Of a DNA stretch of 37,025 nucleotides, positions 3,355 to 31,197 are shown one piece after another. The stretch is taken from positions 1 to 37,025 of the forward strand of contig LCCS01000009.1 of the NCBI GenBank assembly GCA_000998045.1. Reading direction: 5' to 3'. The translations under genes were made by a program, and so were the position numbers. Position 1 is the stretch's first letter. The number at the start of each line of letters is the position of its first letter. Source of the stretch: Parcubacteria group bacterium GW2011_GWD2_42_14. GTDB lineage: Bacteria; Patescibacteriota; Minisyncoccia; Phycocordibacterales; UBA12088. Below the pieces are notes generated by a model. That model made no database searches. It saw only the letters and a list, made by a program, of their open reading frames with translations, and was not told the origin of the DNA.

Positions 3355-3401
3355 GTCCGTACACACAGAGTTTGGCGAAACCAAACTGTATGTGTGCGGA
3401 C
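3355..3401. repeat. Palindromic element H1: 21-bp-arm hairpin
   Basis: Arms at 3355-3375 and 3381-3401 match at 18 of 21 positions around a 5-nt loop (CGAAA). The stem is flanked by CAA on the left and AAG on the right, the border shared by the other elements of this family. It is the first of three consecutive palindromes between divergent yqeY and the P-type ATPase gene. Confidence 0.8.
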
Positions 3402-3403
3402 AA

Positions 3404-3475
3404 GCCCGAACACTCACGTTCACACTGCACACCGCGGTGTGCGTGTTGCAAAGCAACACAGTGTGAATGTAAGTG
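3404..3475. repeat. Palindromic element H2: three-way-junction structure
   Basis: Outer arms of 16 bp lie at 3411-3426 and 3460-3475 with 2 mismatches. They enclose a perfect 16-nt palindrome (3427-3442) and a hairpin GTGTTGC-AAA-GCAACAC (3443-3459), so either strand can fold into a Y shape. The left border CAAGCCCGAACACT (3402-3415) is identical to the left border of the hairpin at 17203-17250. Confidence 0.8.
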
Positions 3476-3483
3476 TGCAGCAA

Positions 3484-3545
3484 GCCCCGTTAGAGGCAAG
3501 TTGTGAAGCAACTACCGAAACTTTCTGTCCGGCCACTAACGGGGC
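3484..3545. repeat. Palindromic element H3: GTTAGAGGC-type structure
   Basis: Outer arms GCCCCGTTAG (3484-3493) and CTAACGGGGC (3536-3545) are perfect and are flanked by CAA and AAG. Inside is a small hairpin, AGTTG-5 nt-CAACT, at 3499-3513. The stretch CGTTAGAGGCAAGTTG is repeated in opposite orientation in the element at 10733-10806, so the two are diverged copies of one family. Confidence 0.78.
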
Positions 3546-3626
3546 AAGCTCTACGTACTGGAAAAATATCGCACCTGTTGAGGAAATCGTTTCGGTGAGG
3601 TTAGCATAATACGGTATACTTATAGC

Positions 3627-3742
3627 ACTTACACAAACGGATGCAGTTCGAGGCGCCCAAGCAAAATAAAACGAGTTGTATGAACAATACTACGAGAGAT
3701 ATTTTGCGCAGAGCAACGATGAAATGCGCCGTTTGTGTAAGT
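3627..3742. repeat. Terminal-inverted-repeat element, copy 1 (MITE-like)
   Basis: This is a 116-bp element with perfect 14-bp terminal inverted repeats (ACTTACACAAACGG at 3627-3640; complement at 3729-3742). Its core shares GATGCAGTTCGA and a stretch of about 50 bp containing AGTTGTATGAACAATACTAC with the copy at 13091-13270. It lies directly in front of the P-type ATPase start codon at 3750, so transcripts of that gene probably run through it or start in it. A promoter-like GGTATACT lies just upstream at 3613-3620. Confidence 0.75.
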
Positions 3743-7877: not shown

Positions 7878-8107
7878 ATGTATCAAGGTTCATATGTTTT
7901 TGCTCAAGTTATGGAACTTCTACCACGCAGAGAACTCACTCGATTCATTACTCAGTATCAAGGTGATAGTCATGGCAATCGACTTCCGTGTCGAGACCAA
8001 TTTCTTGCAATGGCGTTTGGACAACTTTCTTACCGTGAGTCCTTGCGTGATGTAGCATCTTGTCTTACGTCGCATCAAGCAAAGTTATATCACTTTGGTA
8101 TCAATTA
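7878..8107 (+). pseudogene. IS4-family transposase, N-terminal fragment
   Basis: About 76 residues correspond to the DUF4372 N-terminal domain of IS4-family transposases: YVFAQVMELLPRRELTRFI, then FLAMAFGQLSYRESLRDV, then KLYHFGI. The frame runs into the IS200-type element and stops shortly after in unrelated sequence. The catalytic domain is absent, so this is a non-functional fragment. Its other part is at 8645-9121. Confidence 0.85.
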
Positions 8108-8643
8108 CCCCGCCGACGGGGTATGAACGGAGGCATGACTACGTGAGTAACCTGAGTTGCGGGTCTTCTTTCATCGTCTTTCCTTGGTTTGCAATATAAT
8201 TCTTAACAACATTCCAATTTCCACGCTCTCCTACGGTTGCAAAGTAAAAACCATCACTCCAGAACTCCCCTCCCCAGAGTTCTTTTCGCAATTCGGGAAA
8301 CCGTTTGAATAACTCTTTTGCAGTGATTGATTTGAATATACGTACGACATCGCTTCCTGCATATTTTGGAGCAAATGTAACTAAAAGATGGATGTGATTT
8401 ATATCACACCCTATTTGATCAAATTCGATGTCGTACCGAGAACTAATTTCGGTTGCAATATCCCGAATTGCTTTCGTTATGTGGTTATCTAGGAGAGCTT
8501 TACGATACTTAACCGGAAAGACGATGTGGTAGTGAGCATTATATGTTGCGTGGTTTCTTGACTGCGTCATGCCACCAGTATATCTGAAAACCGAGGGTTT
8601 TCAGACTATCCTACAAGGTTACCCGCGCGGCAGAGCCGCGGGG
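8108..8643 (-). mobile_element. IS200/IS605-group insertion (tnpA only)
   Basis: A single Y1 transposase gene lies between subterminal hairpins, as in IS200. On the downstream side of tnpA is CCCCG-CCGA-CGGGG (8108-8121). On the upstream side is a GC-rich imperfect hairpin (8622-8643) plus a perfect 8-bp hairpin TGAAAACC-GAG-GGTTTTCA (8585-8603). There are no terminal inverted repeats, as expected for this group. The exact ends are estimated, because these elements leave no target duplication. It interrupts the IS4 transposase. Confidence 0.8.
8139..8570 (-). CDS. tnpA: IS200/IS605-family transposase TnpA (Y1 HUH)
   Basis: This 143-residue single-strand DNA transposase cuts and rejoins element ends through a 5'-phosphotyrosine. 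The HUH metal site HIH is at residues 59-61 (NHIHLLVTF), and the likely catalytic Tyr is Tyr125 in NVVKNYIANQG. Both are intact and the length is normal for the family, so the protein could be active. The start at 8570 fits the family N-terminus (HATYNAHYHIVF follows). No TnpB partner is present, which makes it IS200-like. The GC-rich hairpins on either side are the probable recognition structures. Confidence 0.93.
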   Translation of the reverse strand: MTQSRNHATYNAHYHIVFPVKYRKALLDNHITKAIRDIATEISSRYDIEFDQIGCDINHIHLLVTFAPKYAGSDVVRIFKSITAKELFKRFPELRKELWGGEFWSDGFYFATVGERGNWNVVKNYIANQGKTMKEDPQLRLLT

Positions 8644-8644
8644 A

Positions 8645-9121
8645 ATTGAGTATTCAAACCCTGTCGATCGTTCGACTGGCGTCCTGTGTGATCAAGTTAT
8701 TTTTCTTGAAGGTGTGAAGACACGAGAGAAATACACCGACACACTCCGTGAGACAGGTAAGGTGTACAACTTTATTACGAACAATCATACCGTGAGTGCA
8801 ACATCAATCGCTCTCCTCTACAAACATCGTTGGCAAGTAGAATTGTTCTTTCGATGGATTAAGCAACACCTCAAGATTAAAGTATTCTGGGGACACTCGG
8901 AGAATGCAGTGAAGACACAAATCTGCATTGCATTGTGTACCTACTTCATAGTCGCCATACTCAAAAAACAACTGAAAATCAAACGCAATATTTACGAAAT
9001 CCTACAGGTATTGAGTGTGTCCTTATTTGATAAAGCAGGCTTGGTTGAGCTGTTTTCAAAACGCTTCGTACAAAAACATGTCAAGAGTTTTGAAAGGACG
9101 GCGCAGTTGTTTGATGATTAG
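8645..9121 (+). pseudogene. IS4-family transposase, C-terminal fragment
   Basis: The reading frame continues the IS4 transposase after the IS200-type insertion. It begins with EYSNPVDRSTGVLCDQ and VKTREKYTDTL, then FITNNHT. YKHRWQVELFFRWIKQHLKIK contains the third catalytic residue of the DDE triad (Glu in QVELFF). It ends at 9121, directly before the right inverted repeat. Part of the catalytic core is missing between this and the N-terminal fragment, so no intact protein can be made. A GTG at 8714 could start a short product, which is unlikely to matter. Confidence 0.85.
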
Positions 9122-10675: not shown

Positions 10676-10732
10676 ATTATCTTTTTTCGTTATACGTGTC
10701 ATATTAATTCTTAAATTTAGAGAACACTGGGC

Positions 10733-10806
10733 TTGTCACGTTAGAGGCCCTAAAGCCCTAGGGCTTTAGGCAGTTGCTTCGCAACTTGCCTCTAACGGTG
10801 GACTTG
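10733..10806. repeat. Palindromic element H4: three-way-junction structure before rplU
   Basis: Outer arms CGTTAGAGGC (10739-10748) and its complement (10788-10797) enclose a perfect 22-nt palindrome (10749-10770) and a hairpin AGTTGC-TTC-GCAACT (10772-10786). On the minus strand the outer arm and TTGC arm match element H3 (3489-3513) at 24 of 25 positions. Borders read CAAGTCC and CAAGCCC on the minus strand. It ends about 25 nt before the possible rplU start at 10831. Confidence 0.8.
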
Positions 10807-11254: not shown

Positions 11255-13084
11255 ATGTGTGGAATAGTTGCATATACTGGAAATAAGCCTGCAAGTCCGA
11301 TTCTCCTAGATGGCTTGCGAGGACTCGAGTATCGGGGGTACGACTCCGTGGGAATGTATATTTCTGGTTATGGAGCATTTCGCACAGTTGGGACAGTTCA
11401 AAATCTTGCTGACTCGTTACCAAGCTCTCTCTTCGGTACGACGGGTATAGCACACACACGATGGGCAACGCATGGACCACCAGCACACAAAAACACTCAC
11501 CCACACACAGATCCAACAAAAAAAATCTGGCTAGTTCACAATGGAATGATAGAAAACTATCAAGAGTTACGTGACTTGTTAGAAAAAAAAGGAAATGTTT
11601 TTACATCCGACACTGACTCAGAAGTACTGGCACACTTAATAGCAAAAGAGTACGAGGTTGAGAAAAAACTATCTGACGCGGTATCATCCGCACTTACACA
11701 AGTTCGTGGGTCCTACGGTATAGCAGTCATAGCCACCGATGATCCTGAAACGGTCGTACTCGCGTCACTTGGTAGCCCCATGGCAATAGGAGTAAAAGAT
11801 GGGGAATACCTTATGGCTTCAGATATTACCCCGATGCGTCGACACACGAGCAATGTCGTCTATTTAAAGGACGGTGAGTATGCAGTCGTTAACAAAGCAG
11901 GCTACTCTATATACTCAACAGATCACAGGAAGATGACCCGCAAGCCTAAATTGCTCCAGAAAGAGCTTGAGGAGTTTCAAACAACCCCCAGTCACTCCCA
12001 CAGTATGATTAAGGAAATACTTGAAATACCCTCTGCGCTTGAAAACGCAGCACGTGGAAGAATTGTTCTAAATGAAGGGAATACTAAACTTAAAGGACTT
12101 GAAGACTATACACCTGAACTGCGAAACATTGACCATATAGTCATTGTTGGATGCGGTTCATCATACTATGCGGGGCTCATCGGGAAACTGCTTATTGAGG
12201 ATTACGCGGGTATACGAGCGGATGTGGCATACGGATCAGAGTTTTGTAACAGACCAATACTTAATGCACCAAGCAAGACAGCTTTCTTAGCAATTTCCCA
12301 ATCTGGAGAAACAGCTGACATTATTACAGCACTCAAGCAAGCTAAGCGAGTCGGTATGCTTACCATTGGTATTGTGAACGTCGTAGGTAGTACCATAGCA
12401 AAAGAAATCGATACTGGTGTATTTAATCACGCAGGTCCTGAAATAGGTATCACCTCGACAAAGGCGTTTGTGAGTCAACTGGAGATACTGACACTCATTG
12501 CTTTGTTTTTAGGTAGATTGCGAGGTATTTCGCAGGCACGAGGTGCGGAGTTAGTAATGGAAGTACAACGACTTCCAGACAAAGCCCGGTCTATTCTCGC
12601 AAAACGAGACAAAATTAAAGAGCTCGCAGAAAAGTACCTTGGCTACGATGACTTCCTTTTCATGGGACGTGAATACAACATAGCTACCGCATATGAGGGC
12701 GCACTCAAGCTCAAGAAAGTATCCTACGTGCATGCAGAAGGCTTTCCTGGCGGAGAAATTAAACATGGTCCTATAGCGATGATAAACGAGATATTTCCAA
12801 CCATTGCTATTATGCCGAGCGACTCGACGTATAGTGCCATGTACAAAGATGTAGAAGAGCTTAAAAAATTACACGGTGGTATTCTCGCTATCGCAACCGA
12901 AGGAAACTTGGATGTCAGAGTACTTGCCGACGATGTTTTTTACATTCCTGATACCAAGCATTGTTTGACTCCAATTCTCGCAAACATACCCTTACAACTT
13001 TTTGCGTACTACACAGGTATATTACGCGGTTTCAATGAAGAAAAAGTTCGTGATACTGTAAAAATATTTGCCACGAGTAGTTAG
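11255..13084 (+). CDS. glmS: Glutamine--fructose-6-phosphate aminotransferase (isomerizing)
   Basis: GlmS makes glucosamine-6-phosphate from fructose-6-phosphate and glutamine, the first step towards UDP-GlcNAc for peptidoglycan. The 609-residue protein has normal length. The N-terminal Ntn glutaminase domain begins MCGIVAY with the catalytic Cys2, and GLRGLEYRGYDS and HTRWATHG follow. Two SIS sugar-isomerase domains follow, with GCGSSYYAG near residue 296 and SQSGETADI near 348. The C-terminus has HGPIAMI and the conserved Lys-containing tail. A weak AGG at 11243-11245 may be the ribosome-binding site. No glmS ribozyme fits in the 68 nt between the rplU terminator and the start codon. The repeat copy at 13091 follows the stop. 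Confidence 0.97.
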   Translation: MCGIVAYTGNKPASPILLDGLRGLEYRGYDSVGMYISGYGAFRTVGTVQNLADSLPSSLFGTTGIAHTRWATHGPPAHKNTHPHTDPTKKIWLVHNGMIENYQELRDLLEKKGNVFTSDTDSEVLAHLIAKEYEVEKKLSDAVSSALTQVRGSYGIAVIATDDPETVVLASLGSPMAIGVKDGEYLMASDITPMRRHTSNVVYLKDGEYAVVNKAGYSIYSTDHRKMTRKPKLLQKELEEFQTTPSHSHSMIKEILEIPSALENAARGRIVLNEGNTKLKGLEDYTPELRNIDHIVIVGCGSSYYAGLIGKLLIEDYAGIRADVAYGSEFCNRPILNAPSKTAFLAISQSGETADIITALKQAKRVGMLTIGIVNVVGSTIAKEIDTGVFNHAGPEIGITSTKAFVSQLEILTLIALFLGRLRGISQARGAELVMEVQRLPDKARSILAKRDKIKELAEKYLGYDDFLFMGREYNIATAYEGALKLKKVSYVHAEGFPGGEIKHGPIAMINEIFPTIAIMPSDSTYSAMYKDVEELKKLHGGILAIATEGNLDVRVLADDVFYIPDTKHCLTPILANIPLQLFAYYTGILRGFNEEKVRDTVKIFATSS

Positions 13085-13090
13085 TACGGG

Positions 13091-13270
13091 GCTTGCACAA
13101 ACAGATGCAGTTCGACTTGTCCGCCATAGCTTTAGTGAAGGAGGAGGCGACCTAGCAAAATGGAACAAGTTGTATGAACAATACTACGAGAGACATTTTG
13201 TGACGCCCTGTACTAGAGCGAAGCTTCAGTACGGGGCGGGTAACGAAGAAATGTAGCGTTTGTGCAAGTC
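13091..13270. repeat. Terminal-inverted-repeat element, copy 2 (with extra hairpins)
   Basis: This 180-bp relative of the element at 3627-3742 has terminal inverted repeats CTTGCACAAAC (13092-13102) and its complement (13258-13268). It shares GATGCAGTTCGA, the block with AGTTGTATGAACAATACTAC, AACGANGAAATG and the end AAGTCCTA with copy 1. Two extra hairpin-like segments are present: one near 13115-13155 and one with arms CGCCCTGTACT/AGTACGGGGCG near 13204-13238. It lies between convergent glmS and recR and contains frames without a credible start or constraint. Confidence 0.75.
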
Positions 13271-13275
13271 CTATG

Positions 13276-13887: not shown

Positions 13888-13898
13888 GATACGAGTTG

Positions 13899-14075
13899 AA
13901 AGTTTATAAAGTTATAAAGTTCATAATGTTAAAGAAAAATGAATGAGCGAAGCGTTTCCTACATTTAGACTCATACATTAAAAATTTCGAATTTAAAAAA
14001 ATGCAACGCATTGCGACTTTAAAAACTTTATAACTTTACGAACTTTCAACTTTTTTACTCATTACTCGGTAACTC
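13899..14075. repeat. AAAGTT-type inverted element between recR and dnaB
   Basis: The left arm carries GTTGAAAGTTTATAAAGTTATAAAGTT (13899-13921, split by one extra T). The right arm reads ACTTTATAACTTTACGAACTTTCAAC (about 14025-14050, approximate). The right end, TACTCATTACTCGGTAACTC, matches on the opposite strand the start of the element at 6459. Between the arms are smaller palindromes (AAATTTCGAATTT; AATGCAACGCATT). No coding potential. Confidence 0.6.
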
Positions 14076-17125: not shown

Positions 17126-17202
17126 ACCTCACCTCCTTGGCTTTTTTATTGATTTCTCAAGTATTCTCTTTCTCAAGAAAAACACCCTCTATATAATATG
17201 TC

Positions 17203-17250
17203 AAGCCCGAACACTTAAACTTATCGCTACGAGTTTAAGTGTTCGGGCAA
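17203..17250. repeat. Palindromic element H5: 17-bp perfect hairpin before frr
   Basis: Perfect arms lie at 17205-17221 and 17232-17248 with a 10-nt loop. Borders are CAA on the left and AAG on the right, as for H1 and H3. The first 14 nt (CAAGCCCGAACACT) equal the left border of H2. It sits between the divergent zinc-ribbon gene and frr; no T run follows, so it is not an ordinary terminator. Confidence 0.8.
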
Positions 17251-17275
17251 GTAGCTTTCCGCACCAGACGTCATC

Positions 17276-31079: not shown

Positions 31080-31084
31080 GGCGA

Positions 31085-31197
31085 GTTGAAAGTTAAATGT
31101 TAAAAGTTGAATGTTCCCAACCCCGCTTGCACGGGCTTTGGTGTTCGCGGAAGGCGAAAGTACTTTGAACTTTGCACTTTTAACTTTTAACTTTCAC
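31085..31197. repeat. AAAGTT-type inverted element between typA and the helicase gene
   Basis: Left arm units GTTGAAAGTTAAATG and TTAAAAGTTGAA (31085-31111) are answered by ACTTTTAACTTTTAACTTTCAC (31176-31197). Between them are partial GC-rich palindromes (CCCCGCTTGCACGGG; TTCGCGGAAGGCGAA). It is the same family as 2457-2562, where the left arm has the same GTTGAAAGTTAAA start. Confidence 0.6.

Follow-up and report, generated by a model that had tools for sequence, protein, structure and literature searches.

Dispersed Y-shaped palindromes of a Parcubacteria genome are mobile elements, probably driven by a GIY-YIG nuclease

We analyzed a stretch of 37,025 nt (the window), a contig of the 1.08-Mb genome (G000) of Parcubacteria group bacterium GW2011_GWD2_42_14. 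Its Y-shaped hairpins are almost certainly mobile palindromes that duplicate 4 bp of their target, and H1 to H4, the four described below, are probably non-autonomous copies of a palindromic transposon driven by a GIY-YIG nuclease. The Y shape, which an earlier note on this DNA had ascribed to selection on shape, belongs to a mobile element that has reached many copies through insertion, rather than to a conserved local structure.

Hairpins of the window and their spacer in related genomes

Three hairpins stand in a row in one spacer and a fourth lies elsewhere in the window. H1 (positions 3356–3400, unstranded) is a simple palindromic element running from TCCGTACACACAG to CTGTATGTGTGCGGA and folds as a plain hairpin. 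H2 (3405–3480, plus strand) has the shape that was originally described: an imperfect outer stem encloses a perfect 16-nt palindrome (GCACACCGCGGTGTGC) and a GTTGC arm (GTGTTGC-AAA-GCAACAC). The same plan, likewise confirmed, is found in H4 (10736–10802, plus strand), a GTTAGAGGC element whose 22-nt palindrome (CCTAAAGCCCTAGGGCTTTAGG) and arm AGTTGC-TTC-GCAACT are enclosed by CGTTAGAGGC/GCCTCTAACG. H3 (3485–3544, minus strand) is CCCCGTTAGAGGC-ended. The earlier note gave it the same outer stem and a TTGC arm in reverse order; the order is indeed reversed, and the stem equals the H4 stem read on the opposite strand, that of H2 being different in sequence. Both H2 and H4 fold as good three-way junctions, while H3 makes a poor one owing to its weak second arm. 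The proposed comparison with shuffled controls bore out the folding: as single-stranded DNA, all four hairpins fold far better than dinucleotide shuffles (z = −6.2 for H1, −4.5/−4.1 for the two strands of H2, −4.6/−4.4 for H3, and −7.0/−7.5 for H4), with 0 or 1 of 200 shuffles folding as well as the real sequence. No Rfam family matched anywhere in the window.

Each hairpin is bounded by 4-nt direct repeats, which are absent from the earlier note. The order in the spacer is CAAG-H1-CAAG-H2-CAAG-H3-CAAG, the repeats being seen in the sequence and in the comparison with a sister genome: 3352–3355 is the left target repeat of H1, 3401–3404 is common to H1 and H2, 3481–3484 is common to H2 and H3, and 3545–3548 is the right target repeat of H3. 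The arrangement CTTG-H4-CTTG, with repeats at 10732–10735 and 10803–10806, was read from the sequence. A simple hairpin at 17206–17247 (unstranded, CCCGAACACTTAAACT..AGTTTAAGTGTTCGGG) also has CAAG on both sides (17202–17205 and 17248–17251) and consists of an H2-type outer stem without inner arms. Loss of the inner arms from a retained outer stem is one of the two observations that, by the reasoning of the earlier note, speak against selection on the Y plan.

The spacer of H1–H3 separates a yqeY-like gene (minus strand) from a 900-aa ORF (plus strand; the earlier note's ATPase gene), so that the hairpins are terminators of neither. The sister genome Parcubacteria GW2011_GWA2_43_11 (G005), compared with G000 over about 40% of each genome, retains both flanking genes, the 5′ part of the 900-aa ORF being 90% identical in DNA. 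Its spacer reads TTTACAAG-[H2]-CAAGTTTCG, i.e., H2 directly preceded by TTTACAAG, without H1 or H3. The inner part of H2 is identical in the two sister genomes; its end is intact in G005 (GTGTGCGGG followed by CAAG) and decayed in the window (GTGTGCAG followed by CAAG). Three further genomes of the genus retain the gene order around the spacer and have no hairpin there. The comparison of orthologous spacers suggested in the earlier note, with H2 alone in the sister genome and nothing in the three others, thus turned out against a structure conserved at this place. H1 and H3 are best read, from the aligned sequences, as recent insertions that each duplicated CAAG and that flank an older H2. Loss of H1 or H3 in G005 through slippage between CAAG repeats is a possible alternative, which we rank below insertion because of the 4-bp repeat statistics of the family given below.

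The high-copy family and the GIY-YIG nuclease element

The outer stem of H3 and H4, CCCGTTAGAG, recurs as the end of a family with many copies, and searching G000 with the hairpin stretch also revealed H2-like and H3-like copies elsewhere in the genome. The CCCGTTAGAG end matched 46 times in G000, 47 times in G005 and 6 times in G001, with no match in the three other genus genomes searched. Copies with these ends are mostly 105–145 nt in size; some measure 43–67 nt, among them H3 and H4 of the window, and each genome has one copy of about 279 nt. An exact 4-bp repeat outside the frame TCCCG..CGGGA was found in 22 of 33 copies (non-redundant family members from two genomes), compared with 3.4 expected from re-paired flanks, and none of 2000 shuffles reached this count. 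Scanning every hairpin for 4-bp repeats gives too low a count, because outer stems extend into the repeats. With the small arm placed at the 3′ side, the target repeat is mostly TGAA, TGAG, TGGA or TGCG; the duplicated 4-mers beside copies vary and include these four, CAAG, CTTG and others. Neighboring tandem copies use one common repeat (L021:9540–9780, L104, L114). Two further sites differ between G000 and G005: the first is an insertion pair at CCA(T), and at the second a single copy in one genome corresponds to a tandem pair in its sister.

Alignment of 24 mid-size (~118-nt) copies showed four unrelated small-arm sequences at one common place, i.e., GGTCAC/GTGACC, CCCCGCC/GGCGGGG, a long GCCGAGCTGTATG.. 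arm and GGACAC/GTGTCC. One H2-type copy in G005 carries its inner arms in the opposite order inside an unchanged type of outer stem. In many 118-nt copies (L104, L107, L021, L098, L122 and others) there is a short ORF, ATG..(I/N)N(L/V)TDGHSVTCL-stop, which terminates inside the right palindrome and could have arisen as a side effect of the arm sequence. Yet another set of palindromes, distinguished by CCCCGTAGTAGAA-type ends and by repeats of TATG or TTGA, was noted at L019:17352–17482, L028 about 12508–12640, and L283:9188–9265; the L028 copy adjoins a CCCCGTTAGAG copy, with one TTGA in common.

The element of about 279 nt has one gene, for an 86-aa GIY-YIG protein, between palindromic ends like those of H3 and H4: the ends CCCGTTAGAGAC enclose the GIY-YIG ORF in G000, G005 and, decayed, in G001. 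The ORF extends into the right palindrome (..FLSLTG, where LTG corresponds to CTAACGGGA), and its TGA stop codon is supplied by the TGAA target. The protein scores 63 bits against PF01541 (cut-off 22.6) and has the conserved Tyr, Arg, His and Glu of the GIY-YIG superfamily. Among 25 proteins, Y3, Y5, Y16, R26 and H30 are invariant and E62 nearly so, and Y5, Y16, R26, H30 and E62 are candidate catalytic residues. Its predicted structure (mean pLDDT 87) matches UPF0213 proteins, SLX1, which cuts branched DNA, and the catalytic domain of I-TevI.

Identity of the nuclease element is 80–82% among G000, G005 and G001, and 78% for the G005–G001 pair. It spans exactly the element and the target repeat, while the flanks are unrelated and the loci differ among the three genomes, indicating that the element has moved. 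In G027, two copies at unrelated loci likewise show identity ending at their edges. A full-length copy occurs just once in each of the three related genomes; in G005 it stands in head-to-tail arrangement with a short copy, a single TGAA separating the two, so that ends, target and position all connect short copies with the nuclease element. When the interiors of the 118-nt copies were aligned with the nuclease gene, the match was no better than for shuffled sequence. Their origin as deletion products of the gene was rejected, since the interiors are not detectably derived from it, and the short copies thus appear from their sequences to be satellites sharing ends with the nuclease element. The assignment of H3 and H4 to the nuclease family is suggested by their common GTTAGAG ends; H1 and H2 are linked to it by plan, a CCC/TCC start and 4-bp repeats only, and ends of the H1 or H2 type were not found around any GIY-YIG gene.

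Breadth, covariation and proposed mechanism

When three of these proteins were used to scan GTDB contigs, 80 loci emerged, and in about 32 of them the ORF is framed by paired ends that exceed shuffled controls. These paired-end loci belong to Patescibacteria, Omnitrophota, KSB1, Bacteroidales, Desulfobacterales, Cloacimonadota, Ignavibacteria and others. A profile built from 25 proteins matched 108 of the 286 genomes of the window's class, and paired ends were seen at 28 of the 30 best loci of that class (counted from the listed rows, L317 and L320 excluded). The paired-end label is clustered on a tree of 128 proteins, where it requires 17 changes vs. 42.7 when shuffled. No relatives were found in viral contigs.

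Over 62 elements, pairing of the terminal arms was seen in 785 of 868 cells, against a mean of 557 and a maximum of 618 after shuffling, and in 234 cells both partners have changed (shuffled mean 78, maximum 114); the first CCC of the ends is nearly invariant and the remainder variable. Results showed that the nuclease gene and paired ends are associated across phyla and that pairing is kept while sequence changes. Selection on shape, as the earlier note had it, holds in modified form for these elements, but at the yqeY/ATPase spacer itself no structure is conserved. The stop codon ends 3 or 4 nt past the last GGG in 42/62 elements, indicating that the flank completes it. Among the 62, those with TCCCG..CGGGA ends show an exact 4-bp repeat in 14 of 18 cases; ACCCTG-ended elements are mostly without a clear repeat, as are some TCCCG ones. 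A structure-reading enzyme would account for covarying ends and exchangeable inner arms.

UPF0213 (YhbQ-type) and SLX1 nucleases, which gave the best sequence and fold matches, resemble the nuclease in having a single GIY-YIG domain; unlike the enzyme proposed here, they are not known to serve mobile elements. Paired ends are lacking in a related GIY-YIG clade whose proteins end in TGFGRxFLKxRI (L164, L188–L190, L192, L194, L200, L201, L219–L222, L226–L228, L233); this clade may represent a settled, non-mobile branch.

We consider it probable that the GIY-YIG nuclease moves the palindromes. The balance tips slightly toward a still broader model, in which a widespread DNA transposon of about 280 bp has as its sole gene an 84–88 aa GIY-YIG nuclease that recognizes branched paired ends, the Y-hairpins being its satellites. 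The autonomous form would be ~280 nt long, with two inverted ends that start with CCC and pair over 12–16 bases around one ORF; this ORF would encode the single-domain GIY-YIG protein of 84–88 aa, with its last codons in the right end and its stop usually from the flank. A hairpin or cruciform may form when the two ends pair within one strand. With its SLX1/UPF0213 fold, the nuclease could then cut the branch at the hairpin foot and/or stagger the target by 4 nt, and host repair would join and fill in, leaving the 4-bp repeat. Renewed use of the repeat beside an existing copy would give tandem rows such as H1-H2-H3. Short copies would be mobilized in trans because, in this proposal, the palindromic end and its shape alone are recognized. 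Several points count against the nuclease as mover: to our knowledge, GIY-YIG enzymes do not join DNA strands, the 118-nt interiors are not gene-derived, ACCCTG ends are mostly without a repeat, and full-length copies are single.

Other movers, known systems and minor repeats of the window

The alternative that survives best, although we hold it to be unlikely, is that the palindromes are ordinary MITEs moved in trans by a DDE transposase, with the GIY-YIG gene a passenger or captured between the ends. Inverted ends and 4-bp target repeats are typical of DDE elements and, together with short-copy interiors that do not match the GIY-YIG gene, favor this explanation. However, the 46 end matches in G000 include neither an IS-sized pair of these ends nor any larger element, bar one pair of lone ends 4.9 kb apart, and a passenger poorly explains why ends and nuclease are coupled across many phyla with differing end sequences. 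Like MITEs and the small mobile repeats of bacteria (Correia/NEMIS, RUP, ERIC, RPE; reviewed in PMC2229807), the hairpins are short, palindromic, dispersed and non-autonomous, with inverted repeats and target duplications of fixed length (4 bp, exact in 22/33). Unlike in MITEs, there are inner three-way arms, and the same-ended element of parental size encodes a GIY-YIG nuclease instead of a DDE transposase.

It is improbable that these are REP-like elements moved by a Y1 (HUH) enzyme, either a RAYT or the IS200-type TnpA at 8139–8570. The genome has three Y1_Tnp genes, imperfect palindromes are the usual Y1 substrates, and, as in REP/BIME systems with RAYT (TnpA_REP), the palindromes are imperfect, dispersed and in tandem, with RAYTs in the same genome. 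Yet the two RAYT-like genes (L008 and L009) lie each between its own perfect palindrome (ATGAAGAAGGTTCAACCTTCTTCAT and ATTAATGAGGTCGGACCTCATTAAT), G001 has family members and no Y1 gene, and the 4-mers beside copies are variable and duplicated, unlike one fixed tetranucleotide. No GTAG or CGTC tag stands beside the hairpins, and no RAYT gene or other Y1 enzyme was found between the same palindromes; Y1 transposases were rejected as movers, as the RAYT-like genes carry other palindromes. IS200/IS605 elements and their PATE derivatives share hairpin ends and small size with the elements described here, but IS200/IS605 insertion produces no target duplication and their full-length elements carry Y1 (HUH), whereas here duplications are present and the ORF is GIY-YIG. 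Another copy of the ATTAATGAGGTCGGACCTCATTAAT palindrome lies inside a CCCGTTAGAG element in L096. The IS200-type Y1 transposase gene of the window (8139–8570, minus strand) is located within an apparent second, broken transposase gene (about 7890–9121).

Even less credible is a homing endonuclease, possibly intron-borne, that invades a single allelic site. Homing endonucleases do include a GIY-YIG family, and a weak match, under the cut-off, to a group I intron endonuclease model was obtained. Homing usually concerns one allelic site in an intron, but the insertion loci differ among G000, G005 and G001, the short target repeats vary, and no intron model matched in 44 loci. For GIY-YIG insertions in CPR rRNA genes, homing was found not to fit (2024 study, PMC11270868). 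Those insertions resemble the nuclease element as small mobile GIY-YIG genes in Patescibacteria and differ from the elements here, which lie outside rRNA genes; the nuclease element could be a candidate explanation for them. Hardly tenable is a regulatory structure, formed in DNA or RNA, that is conserved in the yqeY/ATPase spacer, a view in line with the earlier note: strong folding and an H2 inner part unchanged between sister genomes are outweighed by the absence of H1 and H3 from G005, three other genus genomes without a hairpin, the same elements at many unrelated loci and the lack of an Rfam family.

The preferred reading, a transposon driven by a GIY-YIG nuclease, finds a likeness in double-hairpin elements of fungal and algal mitochondrial DNA, which are also mobile hairpins with more than one arm; those are organellar and, as far as we know, have no enzyme gene of their own. 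The prokaryotic DNA transposons known to us use DDE, HUH, serine, tyrosine or Cas1 enzymes. In open-access PMC text we found no published description of a GIY-YIG transposon of such kind. If the proposal is true, the element would be among the smallest autonomous mobile elements known, and its one-domain GIY-YIG mover would bring to transposition an enzyme fold that no DNA transposon is known to use, connecting mobility with structure-specific (SLX1-like) nucleases. It would also give an origin for dispersed palindromes of CPR genomes, and many genes annotated “GIY-YIG nuclease family” and regarded as repair genes would belong to mobile elements.

Two more kinds of repeats were observed in the window. 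Another dispersed element of 115–185 bp, with ends TAGGACTTACGCAAACGG/CCGTTTGCGTAAGTCCTA, occurs at 3627–3742 and 13089–13271, with copies elsewhere at L011:8915, L015:10107, L020:9459 and 11735, L022:8251, L023:12401, and L027:16744; the copy at 3627–3742 is missing from the sister genome G005. Clusters of AAGTTAAAAGTT/AACTTTTAACTT repeats in inverted arrangement are located at 2456–2564, 13894–14051 and 31084–31196 of the window and at L013:14124, L015:14863 and L025:1818.
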